DNA from: Sediminibacter sp. Hel_I_10
Lineage (GTDB): Bacteria; Bacteroidota; Bacteroidia; Flavobacteriales; Flavobacteriaceae
Reading direction: 5' to 3'
Assembly: GCF_000688335.1 (NCBI RefSeq)
Contig: NZ_JHZX01000001.1
Coordinates: 372,001 to 436,000 of the forward strand
DNA length: 64,000 nt
A model generated the notes under the pieces. That model did no database searches and was not told where the DNA came from. It worked only from the letters and a program-made list of their open reading frames with translations. A program made the position numbers and the translations under genes. Below are positions 13,244 to 26,586 of the stretch, in pieces. Positions within the stretch are counted from its first letter, which is position 1, and each line of letters opens with the position of its first letter.

Positions 13244-13630
13244 ATGAAAAAACAACTAGTCATAATAGATGACGATTATATTTACAGATTGATCACTTCA
13301 AAAATGATACATCACGTAGACAACTCTTTAGAGATTCATCAATGTGAAAATGCAGTTGAAGGCTTGGATAAGTTAACCTCTTTTGAAAATTCAGTTCAAC
13401 CTATTACCGTTCTACTGGACATCAATATGCCTTTTATGAATGGCTGGAGTTTTTTAAAAAAACTAGAGGAATTCACTCCTGAAATTCTAAACAACATCAA
13501 CATCTATATGGTCTCCTCTTCAACTGATGAAAGTGATATTTCAAAAAGCAAAAGCTATAAATTTCTCAAAGGGTTTATTTCCAAGCCTCTAACCAAGGAA
13601 AACATTAAATCCATTCTCGGTAAAAACTAA
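13244..13630 (+). CDS. Single-domain response regulator (CheY-like)
   Basis: A 128-residue receiver begins MKKQLVIIDDDYIYRLI, with the acidic pair IDDD, phospho-acceptor Asp in VLLDINMPFMNGW, a switch Ser in MVSSSTD and Lys in FISKPLT. I start it at the ATG at 13244. A GTG at 13235 that directly abuts the previous stop is possible and adds three residues. It is the last gene of the giant kinase operon and has no output domain. Confidence 0.9.
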   Translation: MKKQLVIIDDDYIYRLITSKMIHHVDNSLEIHQCENAVEGLDKLTSFENSVQPITVLLDINMPFMNGWSFLKKLEEFTPEILNNINIYMVSSSTDESDISKSKSYKFLKGFISKPLTKENIKSILGKN

Positions 13631-16556: not shown

Positions 16557-17012
16557 TTAGTTTCTTCTTAATTTACCGGTCATTTCTTCAACTTTAATAT
16601 GAAAAATAATGGGGAAATCTTCCGTATGGATTTTACTTGAAAACTGACTGATAAAATCCAGTTCTCGATGCTCGTTCTCTATAATCAAATGCTTTACGCC
16701 CAAAGAAAACAAATGCAATTGGGATTTGGCATCACTACCAGAAAGCTCTACAAAAGCGCCCTGAGCTAAAACAGACTGCCAAGAATTTACAGAGTCGATT
16801 TCTGAAACTCCCAAAGACACACTCGTGTGCTTTCGCATTGCATTTATTTTATGCCCTTCTGCAGAGTAACCAATAATGGCATGTTGGTCTTTATCAAAAA
16901 AGTAAGTAATAGGTACTACGTAAGGCCGGTTTCTATAGATGTAAGCTAACTGACCAATGTAATTGGTTTCTAAGACTCTGCTACATTCTTTTGGGTTCAA
17001 GGTTCTAATCAT
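16557..17012 (-). CDS. Pyridoxamine 5'-phosphate oxidase-like flavoprotein (NimA-like)
   Basis: I take the ATG at 17012 (151 residues). A TTG at 17048 would lie upstream of the predicted transcription start. The sequence has the split-barrel FMN-binding pattern of the family: NYIGQLAYIYRNRPYVVPITYFFD, then GHKINAMRKH, where Lys/His contact flavin phosphate, then VSLGVSE. Relatives reduce nitroimidazoles or act as general flavin reductases. Physiological substrates are usually unknown. It is the first gene of a two-gene leftward operon and has one of the five matching Crp/Fnr-type promoters described here, consistent with a stress or low-oxygen role. Confidence 0.82.
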   Translation of the reverse strand: MIRTLNPKECSRVLETNYIGQLAYIYRNRPYVVPITYFFDKDQHAIIGYSAEGHKINAMRKHTSVSLGVSEIDSVNSWQSVLAQGAFVELSGSDAKSQLHLFSLGVKHLIIENEHRELDFISQFSSKIHTEDFPIIFHIKVEEMTGKLRRN

Positions 17013-17036: not shown

Positions 17037-17079
17037 TAAATCTATCAAGATTAAAATCCTTAAATTATGATTTTAGTCA
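17037..17079 (-). promoter_or_regulatory. Class II Crp/Fnr-type promoter of the NimA-like gene
   Basis: TGATTTTAGTCA (17068-17079; on the coding strand TGAC-N4-ATCA) is centred at 17073.5. A -7 element TAGATTTA reads leftward from 17044 to 17037, and its first T is exactly 29.5 nt from the site centre. The predicted start near 17032 leaves a leader of about 20 nt before the ATG. Confidence 0.7.
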
Positions 17080-17190
17080 GTTCTCTTAAATTAACTTGAA
17101 GTTATTGCTAAATGAAATAAAGATAACCATGTTACCTATTTCTGAAATCAGATGAAGATGATAATAACAATTTGGACATGAGATAGTAAA

Positions 17191-19158
17191 CTAGATGGAT
17201 TTGTACCGCAGTAGTCGTAAAGCATTTAGCACCACCACAATAGTAGATCCCTCATGAAATGCCACTGCCACGCCAATATTTGTGAGCCCCAAAATAGTAA
17301 CCGGTACCAATAAACCCACAACGCCTAGACTTATGGCGATATTTTGTTTGATGATTCTTTTGCTCTCACGACTCAAACTGATAACAAACGGCAAGTTCTC
17401 TATTTTATCAGACATGAGCGCAACATCTGCAGTTTCTAAAGCCACATCGCTCCCAGCCGCTCCCATGGCTATACTTACGGTACTTAAAGCCATAGCTGGT
17501 GCGTCATTCACGCCATCTCCAACCATAGCTATTTTTTTATCGCGCTTAATTAATGTCTTAATGGCGTCAACCTTGTCTTCTGGCAATAAATTGCCCTTGG
17601 CTTCGGTAAGACCAATTTGTTTAGCAATAGCATCTCCAACGTTTTGATGATCTCCCGTGAGCATGATCATCCGTTTGATCCCAATCGCTTTTAAACGCTT
17701 CAACGTATCCACGGCCGTTTTCCGAGGTAAATCCATAACACTCACCAGACCCACAATTTCTTGTTTGTAAGCTACCAACATGGCCGTATGACCGTTTTTT
17801 AAAAGTGCATTCATTTCAAGCCTTGTTTTCTCACTAATTGTGATCTCAGAAGACTCCATCAATGTGGCGTTACCAATAGATACCTTGTGGTTCTCATAGG
17901 TTGCAGTAATCCCCTTTCCTTGAATGGCATTAACATTAGTGGCCTTATTTTGAGAATCTATCTTGTACTTTGTTTTAAGGTCACTCGCGATTGCTTTTGC
18001 AAGGGGATGGTTACTTAGGTTCTCTACTTCTAAAACCAATCTGGCCAATTCCACTTCATCAAAATTACCTAACGGAAGAATATTGGTGAGTTTTGGTTTT
18101 CCTTCGGTTAACGTCCCCGTTTTATCAAAGGCAATGGTGGTGATTTCGCCTAAATCTTCCAATGCTCTTCCGCCTTTAATCAGCACACCATCTTGTGCGG
18201 CTCTAGCAACGCCACTTAAAACTGCACTAGGTGTAGAAATAGCTAATGCACATGGACTAGCCGCTACTAATACCGTGATGGCCCTATATAGACTTTCACT
18301 AAAGGTTTCATCAACCACTAGGTATGCAAAACACAGTAGAACGACCAAAAGAATAACCAATGGCACATACCACTTTTCAAACTTTTTGGTGAGCCGTTGT
18401 GTCGGTGACTTTTGAGTTTCAACCTCACTTACCATTTTAACCAACCTTGATACCGTAGAATCTTTAGTAAGCTTTAATACCAAGACTTCTATACTGTGAT
18501 CTCCGTTGATGGTGCCAGCAAATACAACATGCTTTTTGTCTATATCAATAAAGCTTGGTAAATCTTTTGTGTCTTGCAAATAGGTCTTATCTACAGGCAT
18601 GCTTTCGCCAGTGATTGGGGCTTGATTTACAGTGCTACTACCACTTACAATAACGCCATCTGCCGCTATCTTTGTGTTAGGTTTTACAACAATAATGTCT
18701 TTTAGTTGTAATGCTTCTATGGCAACATCCTCAAGTTGATCTCCTTTTTTAACCAAGGCCGTTTTTGGAGATAAATTTCCTAGTGCTTCAATGGACTTTT
18801 TAGCCTTGTTCATGGCATAATGCTCAAGAGCGTGACCCAAACTAAAAAGAAACAGCAATAGTGCTCCTTCTGCCCAACTCCCAATATAAGCAGCCCCTGC
18901 CGCAGCGGCAATCATTAAGAAATCAATATCGAACCCTCCTTTAATGATTTTTTTTGAAGCTTCAATAACTATAAAATAGGCTCCAAAAAAATACGCAATA
19001 CTATAGCCTGTAAGCGCCAAAGCAAAAGACAGTTGAGAAAACATTTCAATCAAAAAAGCAACTAAAAGAAATACGCCACAAAGCACAGCAAAATAGAGCT
19101 CTGTGTTTTTACCTAAAAATTGATGTCCCCCATGGGCCCCATCTTGATGATCTTTCAT
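17191..19158 (-). CDS. P1B-4-type heavy-metal-transporting P-type ATPase
   Basis: The 655-residue inner-membrane pump (ATG at 19158 preferred to GTG at 19164) has a short His-rich N terminus instead of a metal-binding domain. It then has paired helices, the actuator TGESMPVDK, the membrane motif AASPCALA, the phosphorylation site DKTGTLTEGK, GDGVNDAPA and a last helix region with FHEGSTIVVVLN. SPC in place of CPC together with HEG(S/G)T defines subgroup P1B-4, whose studied members export Co(II), Fe(II) or related metals. Iron or cobalt detoxification is inferred from the subgroup. It lies downstream of trxA in the same direction with a 155-nt gap and could be read from the trxA promoter. Confidence 0.92.
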   Translation of the reverse strand: MKDHQDGAHGGHQFLGKNTELYFAVLCGVFLLVAFLIEMFSQLSFALALTGYSIAYFFGAYFIVIEASKKIIKGGFDIDFLMIAAAAGAAYIGSWAEGALLLFLFSLGHALEHYAMNKAKKSIEALGNLSPKTALVKKGDQLEDVAIEALQLKDIIVVKPNTKIAADGVIVSGSSTVNQAPITGESMPVDKTYLQDTKDLPSFIDIDKKHVVFAGTINGDHSIEVLVLKLTKDSTVSRLVKMVSEVETQKSPTQRLTKKFEKWYVPLVILLVVLLCFAYLVVDETFSESLYRAITVLVAASPCALAISTPSAVLSGVARAAQDGVLIKGGRALEDLGEITTIAFDKTGTLTEGKPKLTNILPLGNFDEVELARLVLEVENLSNHPLAKAIASDLKTKYKIDSQNKATNVNAIQGKGITATYENHKVSIGNATLMESSEITISEKTRLEMNALLKNGHTAMLVAYKQEIVGLVSVMDLPRKTAVDTLKRLKAIGIKRMIMLTGDHQNVGDAIAKQIGLTEAKGNLLPEDKVDAIKTLIKRDKKIAMVGDGVNDAPAMALSTVSIAMGAAGSDVALETADVALMSDKIENLPFVISLSRESKRIIKQNIAISLGVVGLLVPVTILGLTNIGVAVAFHEGSTIVVVLNALRLLRYKSI

Positions 19159-19313
19159 ATCCACTCTTTTTTACGCGCTAATCAAATTCGATGTTATTTG
19201 AAATGTATAGCCTACAGGCAATATCTATAATACGGACCGCACCCTTTAACCTTAAAACCAAAAAAATGAAGTCATTTAGTAGCTTTAAAAAAATTAGTTT
19301 ATCGCTTTTTAAA

Positions 19314-19613
19314 CTATGAGTGAGATGTAATCACCTTAATAAGGTCATTTTTTTGAACAACTCCAGATTGTCGCCATACCTGTTGCCCCTTCTTAAACAA
19401 AACCATGGTGGGAACGCCCCTAACTTGATATTTTGCCGCGAGTGGCTGGTTTTTATCTACATCGATCTTTACAATTTTCACACCTTCCCCCAGTTCTGCT
19501 TTGACCTCTTTTAATATAGGCGCCAAGGCTTTACAAGGGCCACACCAATCTGCAAAAAAATCGACCAAAACTGGTGTTTCATCATTAATGATCTCATTAA
19601 AACTACTTTTCAT
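19314..19613 (-). CDS. trxA: Thioredoxin
   Basis: This 99-residue cytosolic thioredoxin has the active site FADWCGPCK (Cys about 27 and 30), the conserved buried VDVDKN-like strand (KIDVDKN) and the cis-Pro in RGVPTM (Pro about 69). There is no signal peptide. It is divergent from the FixL-like kinase, and the 172-nt gap between them holds a TTGAT-N4-ATCAG site placed for class II activation of trxA. The gene context (universal stress proteins, methionine sulfoxide reductases, metal ATPase) supports a redox stress role. Confidence 0.95.
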   Translation of the reverse strand: MKSSFNEIINDETPVLVDFFADWCGPCKALAPILKEVKAELGEGVKIVKIDVDKNQPLAAKYQVRGVPTMVLFKKGQQVWRQSGVVQKNDLIKVITSHS

Positions 19614-19652
19614 GATCTTTTATTTAGTATAATTCTCAATATTCTGATTCAC

Positions 19653-19696
19653 TAAAATTACTAAATCTCTAAATTATAAAAGCTGATATTGATCAA
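19653..19696 (-). promoter_or_regulatory. Class II Crp/Fnr-type promoter of trxA
   Basis: On the coding strand the site reads TTGAT-CAAT-ATCAG (19683-19696 on the plus strand), a near-match to the Fnr/FixK consensus. Its centre is 19689.5. TAATTTTA reads leftward from 19660 to 19653, with its first T exactly 29.5 nt from the centre. The site is in the trxA/kinase divergent gap and could also affect the kinase, but no equally spaced -7 element is seen in that direction. Confidence 0.72.
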
Positions 19697-19785
19697 CTAA
19701 AATAAATATAAAGCTTTATTGGATTAATCAATGAAACAGGCTGTAATCACCTATCTTTCTATTCTCAAAATCAAGATCTTATCCT

Positions 19786-21291
19786 ATGTTTCAGCAAGAC
19801 CAAGAAATTTTTAATATCCTCCTAGACTCTGTATCAGAGGGCGTTATCGTGGTTGATCAAAATCAGACCATTGTTGAGGCAAACAGCTCTGCCGAAACTA
19901 TGTTTGGCTACAATAGAAAAGAACTGTTGCAACTTCCGCTTCAAAATTTGATTCCTCAAAATTATCACACTAAACATGATCAACATTTTAAGGGGTTTAT
20001 CAAGCAAAATAAGCATCGGCAAATGGGTCAAGGTCGTGATATTTTTGGCTTAAAAAAGAATGGAGTTATTTTCCCTATTGAGGCGAGTTTAAACCCATTT
20101 AATATCTACGGTCAAAATTTTATAATGGCTTTAGTTGTTGATATTACTGAGCGTAAAAAGCTAGAAGAAGAAAAGATACATTTGGCTAAAATCTTTCTTG
20201 AATCTTTGAATGAAATCTATGTGTTTGATTCTAAGACCTTAAAATTTATAAATGCCAACCATGGTGCACAAAAAAATATTGGGTATGGATTAGAAGAATT
20301 GGTAACTATGACGCCTTTGGATATTAAGCCCAATTTTACTGAAGCCCAATTTCGAATTCAATTAAAAGACCTGAGCGATGGTACTAAAGAAAAAATAGAA
20401 TTTGACACCATACACAAACGAAAATCGGGAAGCACATATCCCGTAAACGTACACCTGCAGCGCTCAGTCTTAGGAGACAAAAATGTATTTCTGGCCATTA
20501 TCATAGACATTACAGAACAGAAAAATTACACGAGCACGTTAGAAAAAACCGTTGCCTTAAGAACCAAAGAATTAAAAATAGCCTTGGCTGCAGAAAAGGA
20601 GCTTAATGATTTGAAAACAAAATTTCTGTCTATGGTGTCTCATGAATTTAAAACGCCTTTGAGCGGCATTCTAACATCAACCATTTTACTCAGCAAGTAT
20701 AAACAAACAGAACAGCAAGAAAAACGAGAAAAACACATCAAGACCATCACCGATAAAGTGCAATATCTCAATGCTATTTTAAGCGACTTTCTTTCCGTAG
20801 AAAAATTAGCCAATGGCAAGATCAACTATAAGTTCACCAAGTTTAATTTAAGCAAGGTTTTAAATGAGGTGATTTATAATGCCAACATGCTTTTAAAAGA
20901 CGGCCAGCAAATTAATTATCCTAAACATATAGACGAGATCTATTTATTTCAAGATGAAAAAATTCTAGAATTATCCCTGTCAAACTTGATCTATAACGCC
21001 ATTAAATATTCTTCAGAAAACACCACAATAGATATCTCTATTTCTCAAAATGAACACCAAACCACCTTCAAAATAAAAGATGAAGGCATTGGAATCCCTG
21101 AGAAGGATCAAAAAAATATTTTTAATCGCTATTTCAGGGCAGAAAACGCATTACTTATGCAAGGTACAGGCATTGGCCTCTTTATTGTAAAAGATCATTT
21201 AAAAAAACTCAACGGCTCCATTACTTTTAAAAGTATAGAGAATGAAGGGTCAACATTTATCATAGAACTCCCAAATAAAGCACAGTCATGA
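19786..21291 (+). CDS. Two-PAS histidine kinase with a FixL-like haem PAS domain
   Basis: The 501-residue soluble kinase has PAS-1 at about 5-125, PAS-2 at about 130-245, a DHp domain with MVSHEFKTPLSG (His about 285) and an ATPase domain (N box LSNLIYNAIKYS, DEGIGI, GTGIGLFIVK). PAS-1 resembles FixL: LIPQNYHTKHDQHFKGF aligns with the FixL haem helix, placing His64 at the proximal haem ligand. Arg84 falls exactly 20 residues later, as His200 and Arg220 do in Bradyrhizobium FixL. Oxygen sensing through haem is inferred from this. PAS-2 (SLNEIYVFDSKT and TPLDIKPNF) is closely similar to a PAS near residue 1,540 of the giant kinase. The gene overlaps the receiver-Crp gene by 4 nt (ATGA), so the two are a cognate pair. 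Confidence 0.9.
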   Translation: MFQQDQEIFNILLDSVSEGVIVVDQNQTIVEANSSAETMFGYNRKELLQLPLQNLIPQNYHTKHDQHFKGFIKQNKHRQMGQGRDIFGLKKNGVIFPIEASLNPFNIYGQNFIMALVVDITERKKLEEEKIHLAKIFLESLNEIYVFDSKTLKFINANHGAQKNIGYGLEELVTMTPLDIKPNFTEAQFRIQLKDLSDGTKEKIEFDTIHKRKSGSTYPVNVHLQRSVLGDKNVFLAIIIDITEQKNYTSTLEKTVALRTKELKIALAAEKELNDLKTKFLSMVSHEFKTPLSGILTSTILLSKYKQTEQQEKREKHIKTITDKVQYLNAILSDFLSVEKLANGKINYKFTKFNLSKVLNEVIYNANMLLKDGQQINYPKHIDEIYLFQDEKILELSLSNLIYNAIKYSSENTTIDISISQNEHQTTFKIKDEGIGIPEKDQKNIFNRYFRAENALLMQGTGIGLFIVKDHLKKLNGSITFKSIENEGSTFIIELPNKAQS

Positions 21292-22334
21292 CAACCTTAC
21301 TTTTAATAGAAGATGATAACGTATTACGAGAGAATACTTCGGAAATATTAGAACTTTCAAATTATCGAGTTATTACAGCCAGTAATGGACAAATAGGACT
21401 TGAGATGGCCAAAAAACAGAGACCTGATCTCATTATTTGTGATATTATGATGCCTGTGCTTGACGGTTACGGCGTTCTAAAAGGCCTATCTCAGGATAAC
21501 GAAACAAAATTTATTCCTTTTATATTTCTATCTGCCAAAAGTGAACGGCACGACATTAGAAAAGGCATGAATCTTGGCGCAGATGACTACCTTACAAAAC
21601 CTTTTAATGAAGAGGAGATTGTGAGTGCCATTGAGAGTAGATTAGCAAAAGTCTCCATTCTCAAAGAGGAACAAGCGCTTGTTAAAACTACGTTGGACAG
21701 TGACATGGCTGAGTCATTACATGGGCTTAAGGCGGTGTTTGAAGCGCATGGGGAAGTTTCCTCTTTTCAAAAAAATGATGTGATTTACCAAGAAGGTCAA
21801 CACTCAAATACTATTTACTATGTGCTTGAAGGTATTGTAAAGTGTTACAGATTTGACGAAAATGGTAAAGAACTGATTACTGCACTTCAAAAAAAAGATC
21901 ATCTTTTTGGTTACACCTCTTTTTCGCAAAACATACCTTACAGAGAAACGGCTACTGTTATAAGCGACGCTAAAACCTTAAGCATTTCGAAAAGTGAACT
22001 GGATTCTATTTTAAGTAATCATCACGCATTAACATTAGAAGTCATTCAATTATTAACCGATGATCTTATAGAAACTAAAGACCAGCTCCTGCAAATGGCC
22101 TATAGCTCTGTTCAAAGAAAAACAGCTGCCACAATACTAAGATTTGCTGAAAAAATAAACACTAAACCTGAAGATCCCATTAGGATTTCTAGAAATGATC
22201 TCGCCAGCGTAGCAGGTATTGCCACAGAAACCTTAATAAGAACCATGTCTGAGTTTAAGCGACAAGGTCTTATTGAAATGGAAGGACGAAACATTAAAGT
22301 TTTGAACCTTAAAAAACTACAGGACATACAATGA
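21288..22334 (+). CDS. Response regulator fused to a Crp/Fnr-type transcription factor
   Basis: The 348 residues contain a receiver (IEDD at 7-10, phospho-acceptor Asp52 in ICDIMMPVLDG, Ser82, Lys104 in TKPF), a cNMP-binding-like beta roll (about 140-250, FQKNDVIYQEG to ETATVISDAKTLSIS), a dimerisation helix and a Crp-type winged helix. Its recognition helix TETLIRTMSEF has Glu314 and Arg318 in the positions that read TGA half-sites in Crp and Fnr. There is no Fe-S cysteine cluster, so the signal should come by phosphorylation from the overlapping FixL-like kinase. Functionally it resembles FixJ and FixK in one chain. The likely targets are the five TGAY-N4-RTCA promoters around it. Confidence 0.92.
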   Translation: MTTLLLIEDDNVLRENTSEILELSNYRVITASNGQIGLEMAKKQRPDLIICDIMMPVLDGYGVLKGLSQDNETKFIPFIFLSAKSERHDIRKGMNLGADDYLTKPFNEEEIVSAIESRLAKVSILKEEQALVKTTLDSDMAESLHGLKAVFEAHGEVSSFQKNDVIYQEGQHSNTIYYVLEGIVKCYRFDENGKELITALQKKDHLFGYTSFSQNIPYRETATVISDAKTLSISKSELDSILSNHHALTLEVIQLLTDDLIETKDQLLQMAYSSVQRKTAATILRFAEKINTKPEDPIRISRNDLASVAGIATETLIRTMSEFKRQGLIEMEGRNIKVLNLKKLQDIQ

Positions 22335-22354
22335 TTCTATACTAACTTTTAAAA

Positions 22355-22399
22355 TATGATGAATATCATAGCTCTTTAGTAGGCTTCCTTATAGATTTA
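22355..22399 (+). promoter_or_regulatory. Class II Crp/Fnr-type promoter of the first universal stress gene
   Basis: TATGAT-GAAT-ATCATA (22355-22370) is a palindromic TGAT-N4-ATCA site centred at 22362.5. TAGATTTA begins at 22392, exactly 29.5 nt from the centre, and predicts a transcription start near 22404. The identical -7 octamer occurs at the NimA-like gene. Confidence 0.75.
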
Positions 22400-22414
22400 C
22401 TCTCACAAAGAGAA

Positions 22415-23263
22415 ATGTATAGAATGACTATTTTACTACCCACTGACTTTTCTGAGAACTCCTATAAAGCGATGCATTATGCACTCGATTTTTTCGAGAA
22501 TTCAACCTGCGATTTCTACTTACTTCATGTCAACAGAATGTTAGGTCTCAGCCCTGGTGACACCATGTACACGCCCAGCCAGAAAGATATTGAAGAGATG
22601 TACATCAAGCCTTCAAAAAGCAAATTAAAAGCAACCATTGCAACTCTTAGTAAAAAACACAGTTATAACAAAAATCATAAATTTCACGTAGTGGCCGATT
22701 ATGGTGTGCTGGTGGAATCGATTAGAAAACACGTCGCCAATAAAAAAATAGACACGATAGTCATGGGCACCAAAGGCGCATCTGGATTAAAAAGTTACAT
22801 CTTGGGGAGCAATACTGGTGACGTCATCAAAAAAGTAAAATGTAATACGCTAGTGGTTCCTGAGCTTGCAAAATATAAAGCGCTCAACGAAATCGCATTT
22901 CCTACAGACTACTTACTCTCCTATAACATAAAAACCCTTCAGCAACTCACCGATTTACTCTATGCAACTAAAGCCAGTTTACGAATCATACATATGCTCA
23001 AACACAATAGAACATTAAGCAGTGAACAGATTGCCAACAAGGATTTACTCAATGAATATTTCGATGACTTTAAACCGACATTTCATTTTCTTAGTGATGA
23101 CAAAGTAGAGAATGCCATTCAATATTTTGTAGAAAACCAGCATGTCGATCTTATTACCATGGTGGCGAAGAACCTCAACTATTTGCAAAATATATTTTTT
23201 CACTCAAGAGTTGAACACATCAGCTATCACACTAAAATACCGTTTTTTGTGATGCATGAATAA
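22415..23263 (+). CDS. Tandem-domain universal stress protein
   Basis: The 282-residue cytosolic protein has two UspA folds. The first opens with ILLPTDFSENS and carries the ATP-binding signature VMGTKGASGLK, then LGSNTGDVI and TLVVP (G-x2-G-x9-G(S/T)). The second (from about residue 155, IAFPTDYLLS) lacks the glycine loop and is degenerate. An internal ATG at the fourth codon is an alternative start. It is the first of three rightward usp genes and has its own Crp/Fnr-type promoter. Proteins of this family aid survival in growth arrest and low oxygen. The specific role is unknown. Confidence 0.9.
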   Translation: MYRMTILLPTDFSENSYKAMHYALDFFENSTCDFYLLHVNRMLGLSPGDTMYTPSQKDIEEMYIKPSKSKLKATIATLSKKHSYNKNHKFHVVADYGVLVESIRKHVANKKIDTIVMGTKGASGLKSYILGSNTGDVIKKVKCNTLVVPELAKYKALNEIAFPTDYLLSYNIKTLQQLTDLLYATKASLRIIHMLKHNRTLSSEQIANKDLLNEYFDDFKPTFHFLSDDKVENAIQYFVENQHVDLITMVAKNLNYLQNIFFHSRVEHISYHTKIPFFVMHE

Positions 23264-23302
23264 TGGCTGTTGGTATTATAAATTTCAATCCATTATTCTA
23301 AC

Positions 23303-23347
23303 TCTGATATATATCATAGTTCACCGCGCTCAAAGATAATAACTTCA
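23303..23347 (+). promoter_or_regulatory. Class II Crp/Fnr-type promoter of the second universal stress gene
   Basis: TGAT-ATAT-ATCA (23305-23316) is centred at 23310.5. A weaker -7 candidate, TAACTTCA, begins at 23340, again exactly 29.5 nt downstream. The predicted leader before the ATG at 23372 is about 20 nt. Confidence 0.65.
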
Positions 23348-23371
23348 CTCACCTATCTCAACGACATCATT

Positions 23372-24220
23372 ATGCTATCTATACTTCTTCCTACTGATTT
23401 TTCTGAAAATTCAATGAATGCTATAAAGTACGCTCTAGAATTTTTTAAATATCAAGAGACGCAATTCTTATTCATGCACGCCTATCAAAATGAGTTTTAT
23501 GACCACGAAGAACTCACTTCGAGAGACCATTTTGATACAGTTTTAGAAAAAGTTAAAATGGAATCCGAAAGCAGCTTAAAGCAATTGCTCAAAGATGTCA
23601 ATGCATTGGCGCCAAATCCCAGATTTACTTATGACAGTATTTCTGCCAATAATACTCTTGTTTCCGAAACCAATTCACTCGCCCATGCAAGACATATAGA
23701 TTTAATTGTCATCGGGACTAAAGGCATATCAGATGAGCGCCAAACCGTCTTTGGAAGTCAGACCTTTCAAGTTTTGAAATGTGTGGAATGCCCTGTTCTT
23801 GCCATTCCATGCAATTACTCAAACACACAGCCAAAGCGAATTCTATTTCCTACCAATTACCTCATGCCATATAAGCGTCGTGAATTAAAATTGCTTTCCA
23901 TATTAGCCAAATCTTACAGATGTAAAATAGACATCTTATATGTTTCTAAAAGTGACAAACTATCCATTAGACAAGAAGACAATCAAGCATTTATCAAGAA
24001 CGTTTTAAGTGATAATGAATTGAATTTTTGCTTTAGAGATAGTCATCATATTCCGCATACCATAACCAATTACATCAAAGAAAACCAAATGGATATGCTG
24101 ACTATGGTCAATACTCAGCACTCTTTTTTAGAAGATCTTTTATTTCCTTCAACCCTTGATAAAGTAGGTCTTGGTCTAGACATTCCATTACTCGCATTAC
24201 AAAATACCACTCGCATATAA
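23372..24220 (+). CDS. Tandem-domain universal stress protein
   Basis: This 282-residue paralogue of the preceding gene has an N-terminal UspA fold with ILLPTDFSENS and VIGTKGISDER, followed by FGSQTFQVL and CPVLAIP, where the second Gly of the ATP loop is changed to Asp. The C-terminal fold (ILFPTNYLMP onward) lacks the ATP loop. The altered loop suggests it may not bind ATP like its neighbours. It is followed after 18 nt by the third usp gene, so these two are co-transcribed from the promoter at 23303-23347. Confidence 0.88.
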   Translation: MLSILLPTDFSENSMNAIKYALEFFKYQETQFLFMHAYQNEFYDHEELTSRDHFDTVLEKVKMESESSLKQLLKDVNALAPNPRFTYDSISANNTLVSETNSLAHARHIDLIVIGTKGISDERQTVFGSQTFQVLKCVECPVLAIPCNYSNTQPKRILFPTNYLMPYKRRELKLLSILAKSYRCKIDILYVSKSDKLSIRQEDNQAFIKNVLSDNELNFCFRDSHHIPHTITNYIKENQMDMLTMVNTQHSFLEDLLFPSTLDKVGLGLDIPLLALQNTTRI

Positions 24221-24238
24221 CATTGAAACATCTGCACC

Positions 24239-25084
24239 ATGAAACATATCCTATTACCAACCGATTTTTCTGAAAACTCCTGGAACGCTATTGTCTATGC
24301 AATGCAGTTATTTAAAGAACAAACCTGCACTTTTTATTTATTAAACACCTATACCCCTGTTGTCTATCATGCTGAATATGTAATGGGCTATCCCGCTCAA
24401 TTTGGCTTGGGGGACACTATTAGAAACACATCTCAACAACAATTAGAGGAGCTTGTATTGCGTGTCTCTAATGCCTTTGAAGTAAATCCCAAACACACTT
24501 TCGAAACAGCTGCTAGATTTAATACACTCGTCCCGTGCATCTCTGAATTTTTAGAGACACAGCCTATAGACCTCATCATCATGGGGACCAAAGGTGCCAC
24601 TGGAGCTCAGGAAGTGCTTTTTGGATCAAATACCGTACATGTAATTAACGCCATTAGCTGTTCTGTTTTGGCCATTCCTTCTAACTTCAAATACAAAGCA
24701 CCTTATGAGATTTTATTTCCTACAGACCTAAAGGTAAACCATCAACATATAGAGGCTAAGATATTACAGCAAATTACCTTATCCAACCACTCTCGAGTGC
24801 ACTTAATGCATGTTTCAACAGGAAATGCTCTTAACGATGTACAAAAGGAAAATAAGCTACAATTAGAATCTAGTTTTGAAAATACCGTGATGCTTTTTCA
24901 TGATGTCACAGATATGAGTATTCCAGAAGCGATTGATAAATTCCAGACCACTTATGAGATCAATTTATTGGTCATGGTAAATAATAAGCACTCCTTTTTT
25001 GAAAATTTATTTTTCAAGAATACAGTCCATCAAATAGGGTTTCATTTAAATATTCCTTTTCTAGTGATTCCATCAAACAAATAA
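24239..25084 (+). CDS. Tandem-domain universal stress protein
   Basis: The 281-residue protein starts MKHILLPTDFSENSW. The first domain has the intact ATP signature IMGTKGATGAQ, FGSNTVHVI and SVLAIPS. The second (ILFPTDLKVN) is without the glycine loop. The gene lies 18 nt behind the previous usp gene and 75 nt before the helical hypothetical gene. It is probably induced with the second usp gene. Confidence 0.9.
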   Translation: MKHILLPTDFSENSWNAIVYAMQLFKEQTCTFYLLNTYTPVVYHAEYVMGYPAQFGLGDTIRNTSQQQLEELVLRVSNAFEVNPKHTFETAARFNTLVPCISEFLETQPIDLIIMGTKGATGAQEVLFGSNTVHVINAISCSVLAIPSNFKYKAPYEILFPTDLKVNHQHIEAKILQQITLSNHSRVHLMHVSTGNALNDVQKENKLQLESSFENTVMLFHDVTDMSIPEAIDKFQTTYEINLLVMVNNKHSFFENLFFKNTVHQIGFHLNIPFLVIPSNK

Positions 25085-25159
25085 ATAAAGTTTTGCCGAG
25101 GTATATCTTATCTCAATAATGATCAAATTTTTAGAGTATACACTTAATACCATCTCATT

Positions 25160-25603
25160 ATGAAAATAACACAAACGCGATATTCCAAATGGCTTAGTGC
25201 CGAAGACATGCACAATAATTCTCAAGAATGGCTGTCTGAGCTAAATTTTATCAAAGACGAACATCTGTTCTATCAAAATCTCATCAATTCATTGGCATCA
25301 GAAATAGCAGAAGAGAACAGTAAGGATAACTACATTGAAATTATAGACATTCTTAATACATCTCAAAAACAAAACCAAACACTCATTAAAGCGGTGAACG
25401 ATCATCAAAATGAACTTGAAGTGATGCTGGATGGCATTGATCAAATAAAAGAAGAAAAGATGTACGTTAAAGTACACACCACTTTAATTGCCACTATTGC
25501 AGAGTTTTTAAAAGAATATAAACTATTAAAAACGCAGTTGTTTGACATTATAAAAACCATCACCAAAGACGGGAAACAAAGAGATTTGATGGATAAAAAA
25601 TAA
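25160..25603 (+). CDS. Helical protein of unknown function in the stress cluster
   Basis: This 147-residue protein is predicted nearly all helical with two long amphipathic helices (about 35-95 and 105-140), and has no signal peptide or membrane segment. I recognise no family. The opening MKITQTRYSKWLSAEDMH is polar, and the layout is like small four-helix coiled-coil proteins found near universal stress genes. It ends at a strong hairpin terminator. No TGAT-N4-ATCA site was found in its upstream gap, so it may be read through from usp. Confidence 0.7.
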   Translation: MKITQTRYSKWLSAEDMHNNSQEWLSELNFIKDEHLFYQNLINSLASEIAEENSKDNYIEIIDILNTSQKQNQTLIKAVNDHQNELEVMLDGIDQIKEEKMYVKVHTTLIATIAEFLKEYKLLKTQLFDIIKTITKDGKQRDLMDKK

Positions 25604-25640
25604 GCTACCAATCCTAAATATTTATAGGTGGTAGCCCTTT
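25604..25640. terminator. Hairpin terminator between convergent genes
   Basis: GCTACC (25604-25609) pairs with GGTAGC (25630-25635), with an inner CCTA/TAGG pairing, followed by CCCTTT. It starts right after the stop of the helical gene and sits 46 nt from the stop of the opposite usp gene, so it may serve both directions. Confidence 0.6.
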
Positions 25641-25680
25641 ATGCGCTTAGTATAATTTAAGACCTCAAGCAATACATCAT

Positions 25681-26523
25681 TTAGTCCAGTTCATCATGAA
25701 CAACCAAAAGTGGTACTTCTAAATGACTTCCAATTTTAGTGGTTGATGACCCCATAAAGAAATGCTCAAACATGAGCTCCTTATGTTTTATAAGCACTAT
25801 TAAATCAATATTGTTGGTTTGCACATAGCCATTAACAGCATGATGCTTTGGCAAATCATGAACTGCATAATAGACAAAAGGAACTTTATGGAGTACCGTT
25901 TTTAGCGTTTCTTGATCGCTATGTTTTCGCTCTTCATCTACGCTATTTTCGTTAATTCTTAAAACATGTATTTTTTTACTAAAGCTTTTGATCACCCTGA
26001 TCGCTTTAGAAAAAGCAACACCGTTCATAGCATCAAAAGGATCTAATGGAAATATGATTTCTTCGGGTTTTTTATAGAGAAAACCATCTGGCACCACAAA
26101 GGTTGCACAATCGACGTTTCTAATCACATGAATCGTATTGCTGCCAAAAACCTTTTCTTTAACTCCAGTATTACCTTTAGTTCCCATGAAGATAAAATCG
26201 ATTTGCTTTGAAATCACCAGTTCATTTACTGCATTGGTTAAATCGCCATATTCAACTATAGGTTCATATTGAAAATTGTCATTATCAAAGACTTTCACCA
26301 AATCAACGATAAGGTCCTTTAACTGATCTTTCTCGTTTTTGATGATAGACTGATAGATTGAATTAGAGCCAGACATTATAAGATCTCCACTAATATAAGA
26401 GGATGAACTTTTAGTGTGGAGTATAAAAAAGGTACAAATCTCTTCTTTAAGGAACTGCATGGCATAATGCATTGCGTTTATAGAATTATCTGAAAAATCT
26501 GTGAGTAAAAGAATCCGTTTCAT
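25681..26523 (-). CDS. Tandem-domain universal stress protein
   Basis: I start at the ATG at 26523 (MKRILLLTDFSDNS), matching the start of the paralogues and replacing an upstream TTG. That gives 280 residues. The first domain has FMGTKGNTGVKEKVFGSNTIHVI with an intact ATP loop. The second (IIFPLDPFDAMN) is degenerate. It is convergent with the other three usp genes and has its own Crp/Fnr-type promoter with the same spacing. It is the fourth member of the cluster. Confidence 0.9.
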   Translation of the reverse strand: MKRILLLTDFSDNSINAMHYAMQFLKEEICTFFILHTKSSSSYISGDLIMSGSNSIYQSIIKNEKDQLKDLIVDLVKVFDNDNFQYEPIVEYGDLTNAVNELVISKQIDFIFMGTKGNTGVKEKVFGSNTIHVIRNVDCATFVVPDGFLYKKPEEIIFPLDPFDAMNGVAFSKAIRVIKSFSKKIHVLRINENSVDEERKHSDQETLKTVLHKVPFVYYAVHDLPKHHAVNGYVQTNNIDLIVLIKHKELMFEHFFMGSSTTKIGSHLEVPLLVVHDELD

Positions 26524-26543
26524 GGTTGTCCTATTTAGAACCA

Positions 26544-26586
26544 TAAACATAATCTTAGTGAGAGACAATAAAACTGATATTCGTCA
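26544..26586 (-). promoter_or_regulatory. Class II Crp/Fnr-type promoter of the fourth universal stress gene
   Basis: On the coding strand the site reads TTGAC-GAAT-ATCAG (core 26575-26586, centre 26580.5). TATGTTTA reads leftward from 26551 to 26544, with its first T 29.5 nt from the centre, as in the other four promoters. The predicted start is near 26539, giving a 16-nt leader. Confidence 0.72.

Follow-up and report, generated by a model that had tools for sequence, protein, structure and literature searches.

In the class II promoters of Escherichia coli that are activated by FNR and CRP, the regulator's site is centred at −41.5. The FixL–FixJ–FixK system of rhizobia and Burkholderia combines a haem-PAS kinase, a receiver and a Crp-type output with targets that include cbb3 oxidase and universal stress protein (usp) genes; FixJ, a receiver with a LuxR-type output, relays the signal transcriptionally to fixK. 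We have analysed a stretch of 64,000 nucleotides from Sediminibacter sp. Hel_I_10, a member of the Flavobacteriaceae (contig NZ_JHZX01000001.1, positions 372001–436000; hereafter, the window), in which a Crp/Fnr-type palindrome, TGAY-N4-RTCA, stands 23 nt upstream of a −7 element of the TAnnTTTR type at five promoters. With a probability of roughly 0.82, we take the five sites to be operators of a family-wide low-oxygen regulon, which would be subject to class II activation by a FixL-type kinase paired with REC-Crp, a response regulator with Crp-type output, and by a stand-alone Fnr-like protein.

The composite of site and −7 element resembles the E. coli class II promoters in its TGA-N6-TCA core, in the distance of 29.5 nt from the site centre to the first T of the downstream element and in its poor upstream box. 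It differs from them in having TAnnTTTR in place of TATAAT and flanks of the form [CA]TGAY...RTCAT in place of TTGAT...ATCAA. With FixL–FixJ–FixK the locus shares a FixL-like haem-PAS kinase, a receiver, a Crp-type output and targets of the cbb3 and usp classes. Here, in contrast, receiver and Crp output are joined in one protein, there is no transcriptional relay from FixJ to fixK and a second, Fnr-like regulator probably acts at the same sites. REC-Crp is not FixJ, its output consisting of cNMP_binding and HTH_Crp_2 domains and not of a LuxR-type domain; judged by domain content, the kinase/REC-Crp pair would work like a shortened FixL–FixJ–FixK system.

Two further systems, both from other phyla, are the low-oxygen-activated (lxa) locus of Burkholderia cenocepacia and the DosR regulon of Mycobacterium tuberculosis; they share with the present locus the gene types usp, heat-shock and nitro-compound reduction, but their regulator architecture and promoters differ from the flavobacterial ones. 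In the part of the report available to us, the low-oxygen response of the lxa locus involves six usp genes, a protein that reduces nitro compounds and a heat-shock protein, with FixLJ–FixK and DosR under discussion (PMC6127331). Other Crp/Fnr homologues of the Flavobacteriales have been predicted, by way of a Bacteroides MalR matrix, to be carbon-sensing (PMC8510549, accessible portion). We found no description of the site, the spacing or the REC-Crp protein in the literature, judged by titles and abstract openings, with the broadest queries only sampled and subscription journals mostly outside the coverage. Oxygen control may thus be little described in the Flavobacteriaceae, a large family of the sea, fresh water and soil.

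Five promoters share a composite element

An earlier reading of the window from its letters (the sequence-only reading) had described TGAY-N4-RTCA sites at five promoters, each with a TAnnTTTA-like −7 element at one identical spacing. The sites, their centres and strands, the 23-nt gaps and the −7-like elements are all as it gave them; four of the elements are strict and that of usp2 needs the relaxed form TAnnTTCA.

17068–17079, minus strand: Crp/Fnr-type site of the NimA-like gene, TGACTAAAATCA on this strand, centre 17073.5
17037–17044, minus strand: −7 element TAGATTTA of the NimA-like gene, 23 nt from the site
16557–17012, minus strand: NimA-like, pyridoxamine 5′-phosphate oxidase-type gene, ATG at 17012 (Pfam Pyridox_ox_2, E 1.4e-13)
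19684–19695, minus strand: Crp/Fnr-type site of trxA, TGATCAATATCA on this strand, centre 19689.5
19653–19660, minus strand: −7 element TAATTTTA of trxA, 23 nt from the site
19314–19613, minus strand: trxA, thioredoxin (Pfam Thioredoxin, E 5.5e-32)
22357–22368, plus strand: Crp/Fnr-type site of usp1, TGATGAATATCA, centre 22362.5
22392–22399, plus strand: −7 element TAGATTTA of usp1, 23 nt from the site
22415–23263, plus strand: usp1, universal stress protein (Pfam Usp, E 9.9e-26)
23305–23316, plus strand: Crp/Fnr-type site of usp2, TGATATATATCA, centre 23310.5
23340–23347, plus strand: −7-like element TAACTTCA of usp2, one base off TAnnTTTR, so that the strict pattern misses this composite
23372–24220, plus strand: usp2, universal stress protein (Pfam Usp, E 1e-20)
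26575–26586, minus strand: Crp/Fnr-type site of usp4, TGACGAATATCA on this strand, centre 26580.5
26544–26551, minus strand: −7 element TATGTTTA of usp4, 23 nt from the site
25681–26523, minus strand: usp4, universal stress protein (Pfam Usp, E 1.7e-26)

All five sites have the two-fold symmetric TGA-N6-TCA core. Counted from the first T of the −7 element, the start codon is 32 nt away in the NimA-like gene and usp2, 47 nt in trxA and 28 nt in usp4; in usp1 it is 23 nt away, or 32 nt with the next in-frame ATG. In 200 dinucleotide shuffles, the composite occurred 0.02 times on average and at most once, compared with five times (four with the strict element) in the window, which bears out the earlier contention that five identical spacings are unlikely to be due to chance. 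The palindrome alone is mildly enriched, with 10 matches in the window for 5.1 expected and at least 10 in 2 of 100 shuffles; the other five of these matches have no fitting −7 element at a gap of 23.

The composite in the genome and in relatives

The strict composite was defined as TGAY-N4-RTCA, 23 nt and TAnnTTTR, and the reversed pattern served as control. The genome of Sediminibacter sp. Hel_I_10, a single contig of 4,106,053 bases, holds nine strict composites and one match to the reversed pattern. When the gap was varied from 8 to 38, 52 matches were obtained: gap 23 alone gave nine and the remaining 30 gaps 43 between them, with 22 in total for the reversed control. Three of the five strict matches outside the window sit ahead of fitting gene starts. 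Targets there comprise a small membrane-protein gene (assigned by eye) followed by hemN, an acetyl-CoA hydrolase-type gene and a ccoNO gene, the last about 240 nt beyond its composite with space for one small gene between. At the ccoI promoter (L147, near 13525–13567), a site lies at gap 23 from CACCTTTG, which departs from the strict element by a single base; counts made with strict patterns are therefore too low for the regulon.

Enrichment is thus modest in the organism's own genome; among relatives it is overwhelming. In 120 Flavobacteriaceae genomes, we counted 1655 strict composites and 63 reversed controls, with the composite present in 110 genomes, for which it furnishes a testable list of probable low-oxygen promoters. 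A narrower comparison covered 40 genomes, 22 with the Fnr-like protein only and 18 with REC-Crp only: gap 23 was found 725 times and gaps 24–33 together 381 times, or 38 per gap, a ratio inflated by the hand-picking of these genomes, all of which have at least nine composites; the 1655 to 63 count involves no such selection.

Genome contigs were scanned with REC-Crp, which gave at least 588 matching places; we kept the 80 top-scoring loci, from named relatives, each of at most 21 kb and together 1,468,825 bases. Over gaps of 0–60 between palindrome and TAnnTTTR, gap 23 accounts for 247 matches, gap 45 for 27 and each of the 59 other gaps for 0–9, with a mean of 2.9. Nine other palindromes placed at gap 23 gave 0 or 1 match each, and of the two symmetric forms, TGAC-N4-GTCA was matched there 35 times and TGAT-N4-ATCA 123 times. 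Composites are present in 68 of the 80 loci. This fixed spacing supports the proposal of a regulon that would use class II geometry.

A logo was built from 246 instances, one at a locus edge being left out. The consensus is [CA]TGAY-N4-RTCAT, with a T immediately 3′ of the site in 95%, and the sequence 3′ of the −7 element is A-rich. No −33 TTTG box is apparent in these instances: positions −35 to −32 are T-rich, with G at −33 in 22%. Site and −7 element therefore recur as a unit with a T-rich stretch in place of the canonical box, much as the sequence-only reading had suggested; the stretch may be a remnant of the −33 box.

With the −7 element relaxed to TTYR, the 80 loci contain 252 composites, and for 236 of these a reading frame begins no more than 250 nt away. 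From the first T of the element to the start codon, the median distance is 31 nt, and it is 24–36 nt in 167 of these 236, reading frames having been called mechanically and some start codons being guesses. According to start mapping in Flavobacterium psychrophilum, TAnnTTTG occupies −12 to −5, and the median 5′ untranslated region is 24 nt (PMC9723704, available portion). If the −7 element is positioned here as it is there, the site centre falls at −41.5 and a typical 5′ untranslated region would be about 20 nt; we infer a centre at −41.5 from the transcription start on this footing.

Two candidate regulators

The genome encodes two strong Crp-type proteins, REC-Crp and the stand-alone Fnr-like protein, in addition to weaker ones.

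19786–21291, plus strand: PAS-PAS histidine kinase with FixL-like haem-PAS, protein residues His64 and Arg84 (Pfam and alignment)
21288–22334, plus strand: REC-Crp, receiver – cNMP-binding – Crp helix-turn-helix response regulator (Pfam cNMP_binding, HTH_Crp_2)
1044897–1045595 of the genome contig: Fnr-like protein gene, near cbb3 oxidase genes and hemN

A kinase frame scoring above 200 bits adjoins REC-Crp in 77 of the 80 loci; in the other three (L080, L121 and L136), the contig begins no more than 1.8 kb from REC-Crp. The N-terminal PAS domain of the Sediminibacter kinase has FixL as its best solved match (1d06, E 2.4e-12), and the haem-ligand His and distal Arg are aligned; we take the His of 1d06 to be the proximal haem ligand and the Arg to be the distal residue. 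By a count made by eye, the haem His is kept in 68 of the 77 neighbouring kinases. Those with the His and another residue for the Arg mostly have Met, Leu, Ile, Val, Ser or Thr at that position, so their haem ligand or affinity may differ. Eight kinases adjoining REC-Crp have a PAS domain without the haem His (L076, L092, L097, L103, L104, L105, L106 and L112), and their signal may differ.

The Fnr-like protein aligns over nearly its whole length with FNR 5cvr (E 4.1e-23), which we take to be the Aliivibrio fischeri protein; 2gau, also a Crp/Fnr protein, is its highest-ranking match among solved structures (E 5.9e-28). In an alignment of the best-scoring 30 of 70 such proteins (L147:13898–14596 and L154–L183), four cysteines are invariant in all 30. 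Three correspond to Cys20, Cys23 and Cys122 of FNR, a likeness to which the position of the gene beside cbb3 oxidase genes and hemN may be added; the fourth, at the protein's own position 58, is possibly part of a variant set of Fe-S ligands. It is plausible, given these residues, that the protein carries an Fe-S cluster. In L071 (Hyunsoonleella ulvae), about 0.9 kb separates REC-Crp from an Fnr-like gene on its downstream side.

The recognition-helix Glu and Arg of solved FNR are present in all 81 REC-Crp proteins of the 80 loci and in all 30 Fnr-like proteins, and the Ser of FNR is replaced by Ile in every one of both sets.

Both proteins were assigned as probable regulators by comparison, and the number of composites follows the presence of either. 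A match of at least 240 bits counted as a REC-Crp orthologue, which gave 54 genomes, and for the Fnr-like protein a threshold of 150 bits gave 70, both cut-offs having been set after the lists were viewed. Median counts per genome are 25 with both regulators (n = 27, range 9–53), 14 with REC-Crp only (n = 27, range 6–37), 11 with the Fnr-like protein only (n = 43, range 2–36) and 1 with neither (n = 23, range 0–29), 21 of the last 23 having 0–2. Mann–Whitney comparisons with the group lacking both, uncorrected for kinship, gave p values of 1e-8 for REC-Crp only and 1e-9 for the Fnr-like protein only. At least three composites occur in 40 of the 43 genomes with the Fnr-like protein only, and we accordingly rejected REC-Crp as the sole regulator of the composites.

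Target genes

Targets in the 80 loci were assigned by best match to 20 proteins of the Sediminibacter genome; since the loci were chosen around REC-Crp, usp genes are over-represented. The 236 targets comprise 99 usp, 5 ccoNO, 4 ccoI, 3 hemN, 4 NimA-like, 2 thioredoxin-like and 4 kinase-like genes, 5 resembling a 147-residue protein of the window and 110 others. Among the others are a family of 27 members, a ribosome hibernation family of 15 (Ribosomal_S30AE) and an Hsp20 family of two. As classes, usp, cbb3 oxidase, hemN, ribosome hibernation and Hsp20 make up what we read as a target set of the low-oxygen type. According to the accessible part of PMC9723704, cbb3 and haem synthesis genes go up under oxygen limitation in F. 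psychrophilum.

The 27-member family consists of L098:8249–8653 (minus strand) and 26 relatives of about 135 residues; its representative has no Pfam match. By eye, it also includes L215, L223 and L191 and is perhaps TerB-like.

Reading frames were assigned for 38 of 40 sites sampled in genomes with a single regulator, 20 from two Fnr-only and 20 from two REC-only genomes. The targets so identified in Fnr-only versus REC-only genomes are usp in 2 versus 6 cases, hemN in 2 versus 1 and ccoNO in 1 versus 1.

Breadth and the tandem form

The scan was extended to 198 Bacteroidota genomes. In 28 genomes of the same class outside the order, there are 139 composites and 15 controls (a sum made by eye). 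The 149 Bacteroidota genomes of other classes mostly have 0–3 composites each, the largest number being 8.

A tandem form consists of the palindrome, 10 nt, TGA-N6-TCA, 23 nt and TAnnTTTR, which puts the two sites, 22 bp apart, at −63.5 and −41.5. Of 149 Bacteroidia genomes, 65 have the tandem form and none has its reversed control; four of the 149 are of the same family as Sediminibacter, one of them with a match. In this second site, these promoters again differ from the E. coli class II promoters. The proximal site of the tandem pairs is often degenerate (TGA-N6-TCA).

The tandem form accounts for most of the minor peak at gap 45 in the 80 loci: 21 of the 27 cases also have TGA-N6-TCA at −41.5 and 6 do not. 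Class I sites were considered as the cause of the peak and rejected on these counts. By origin, 21 of the 27 cases come from L123–L141, none of which is named as Flavobacteriaceae.

Proposed mechanism and alternatives

We propose that [CA]TGAY-N4-RTCAT, its centre some 41.5 nt ahead of the transcription start, is the binding site of a Crp/Fnr-type dimer, which would activate sigma-A RNA polymerase at the TAnnTTTR −7 element 23 nt away, the site replacing the −33 box in the class II manner. This suggests that class II geometry has been retained with a sigma factor of different promoter specificity. Two paralogous regulators of the same DNA specificity and different sensors would probably read this one promoter code. 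REC-Crp would be switched by the adjacent haem-PAS kinase, an arrangement that amounts to FixL together with a single protein that joins a FixJ-type receiver and a FixK-type output; the second regulator would be the stand-alone Fnr-like protein, with its four invariant cysteines and a gene beside cbb3 oxidase genes. Oxygen is the likely signal, and some division of labour between the two may be supposed. The sequence-only reading had envisaged a five-promoter regulon, with the receiver-Crp protein as a candidate regulator; the regulon stands, but that scope was too narrow, the code being family-wide and REC-Crp one of two probable regulators.

We lean, with less confidence, towards a further evolutionary reading of these genomes: that one composite code in the Flavobacteriaceae, found in single or tandem form in many other Bacteroidia, is common to the haem-PAS kinase/REC-Crp pair and to an Fnr-like protein whose fourth cluster cysteine lies at a new position, with lineages keeping one sensor, the other or both, so that the sensor would have been swapped in evolution while the promoters stayed fixed. 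It would be a natural example in which chemically different sensors have converged on a single promoter set and perhaps supplanted one another there.

Several observations weigh against the proposal of a low-oxygen regulon under two sensors. With nine composites, the Sediminibacter genome stands at the bottom of the range for genomes that have both regulators, and two of its nine strict matches (48060 and 1979844) fall within coding sequence without a fitting gene start; these two are probably chance. Both haem His and Arg are kept in only 41 of the 77 kinases. The position of FNR Cys29 is occupied by Asn in all 30 Fnr-like proteins, which, with the fourth invariant Cys at position 58, sets them apart from FNR; the Fnr-like protein is not FNR in the strict sense. 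Two genomes have composites and neither regulator was found in them, G048 with 29 and G051 with 5; they are 82% and 88% complete, so a regulator gene may have been missed. Many of the genomes with neither regulator are small, which is a partial confounder, and relatedness is uncorrected in the regulator comparison; among those of at least 2.6 Mb, seven of eight have 0–2 composites, so genome size is not the whole cause.

The strongest rival, which we regard as possible but doubtful, is that REC-Crp alone drives the five window promoters and that the Fnr-like protein has a separate set of look-alike promoters. None of the five sites is more than about 5 kb from the kinase/REC-Crp pair, and the REC-Crp loci of relatives are rich in composites ahead of usp genes. 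Against this rival stand the sites themselves: those of REC-only and Fnr-only genomes have no clear difference within the palindrome, only a small one outside it at −34, in 50 versus 50 listed places from four genomes each, which are not a random draw. On this comparison, we rejected separate sites for the two regulators. Furthermore, composites precede usp, hemN and ccoNO genes (two, two and one, respectively) in the sampled Fnr-only genomes also.

Repression is improbable. The sign of regulation cannot be read from geometry alone, but a repressor has no need of exact spacing or of a missing −33 box, and two of the composite-bearing gene classes, cbb3 and haem synthesis, are among those that rise in oxygen-limited F. 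psychrophilum in the account cited above. We consider it more improbable still that the composite is a single promoter of an alternative sigma factor reading both boxes. Rigid spacing is typical of such two-box promoters too; against this, the upstream box has the form of a Crp/Fnr-type inverted repeat, 12 nt long, copies of it stand 22 bp further upstream in the tandem form, the number of composites tracks two Crp/Fnr proteins and the −7 box matches the sigma-A consensus as given in the portion of PMC9723704 available. As for common ancestry of the promoters through local duplication, three of the five genes are indeed related usp paralogues, but the NimA-like gene and trxA are unrelated, the spacer between site and −7 element differs in sequence among all five promoters and the pattern recurs ahead of unrelated genes across genomes. 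Chance is ruled out by the shuffles, other palindromes, other gaps and reversed patterns, and we give this last pair of explanations virtually no weight beside the low-oxygen regulon proposed here.

Other genes of the window

24239–25084, plus strand: usp3, universal stress protein, 18 nt after usp2 (Pfam Usp, E 4.1e-23)
17191–19164, minus strand: P-type ATPase, 3′ of trxA on the same strand (Pfam E1-E2_ATPase, E 1.3e-50)

From their arrangement, usp2 and usp3 are probably on the same transcript, and trxA and the P-type ATPase possibly share one. The 147-residue protein (25160–25603) adjoins the usp genes and has no Pfam match; in the 80 loci, its homologues lie downstream of composites in five cases.

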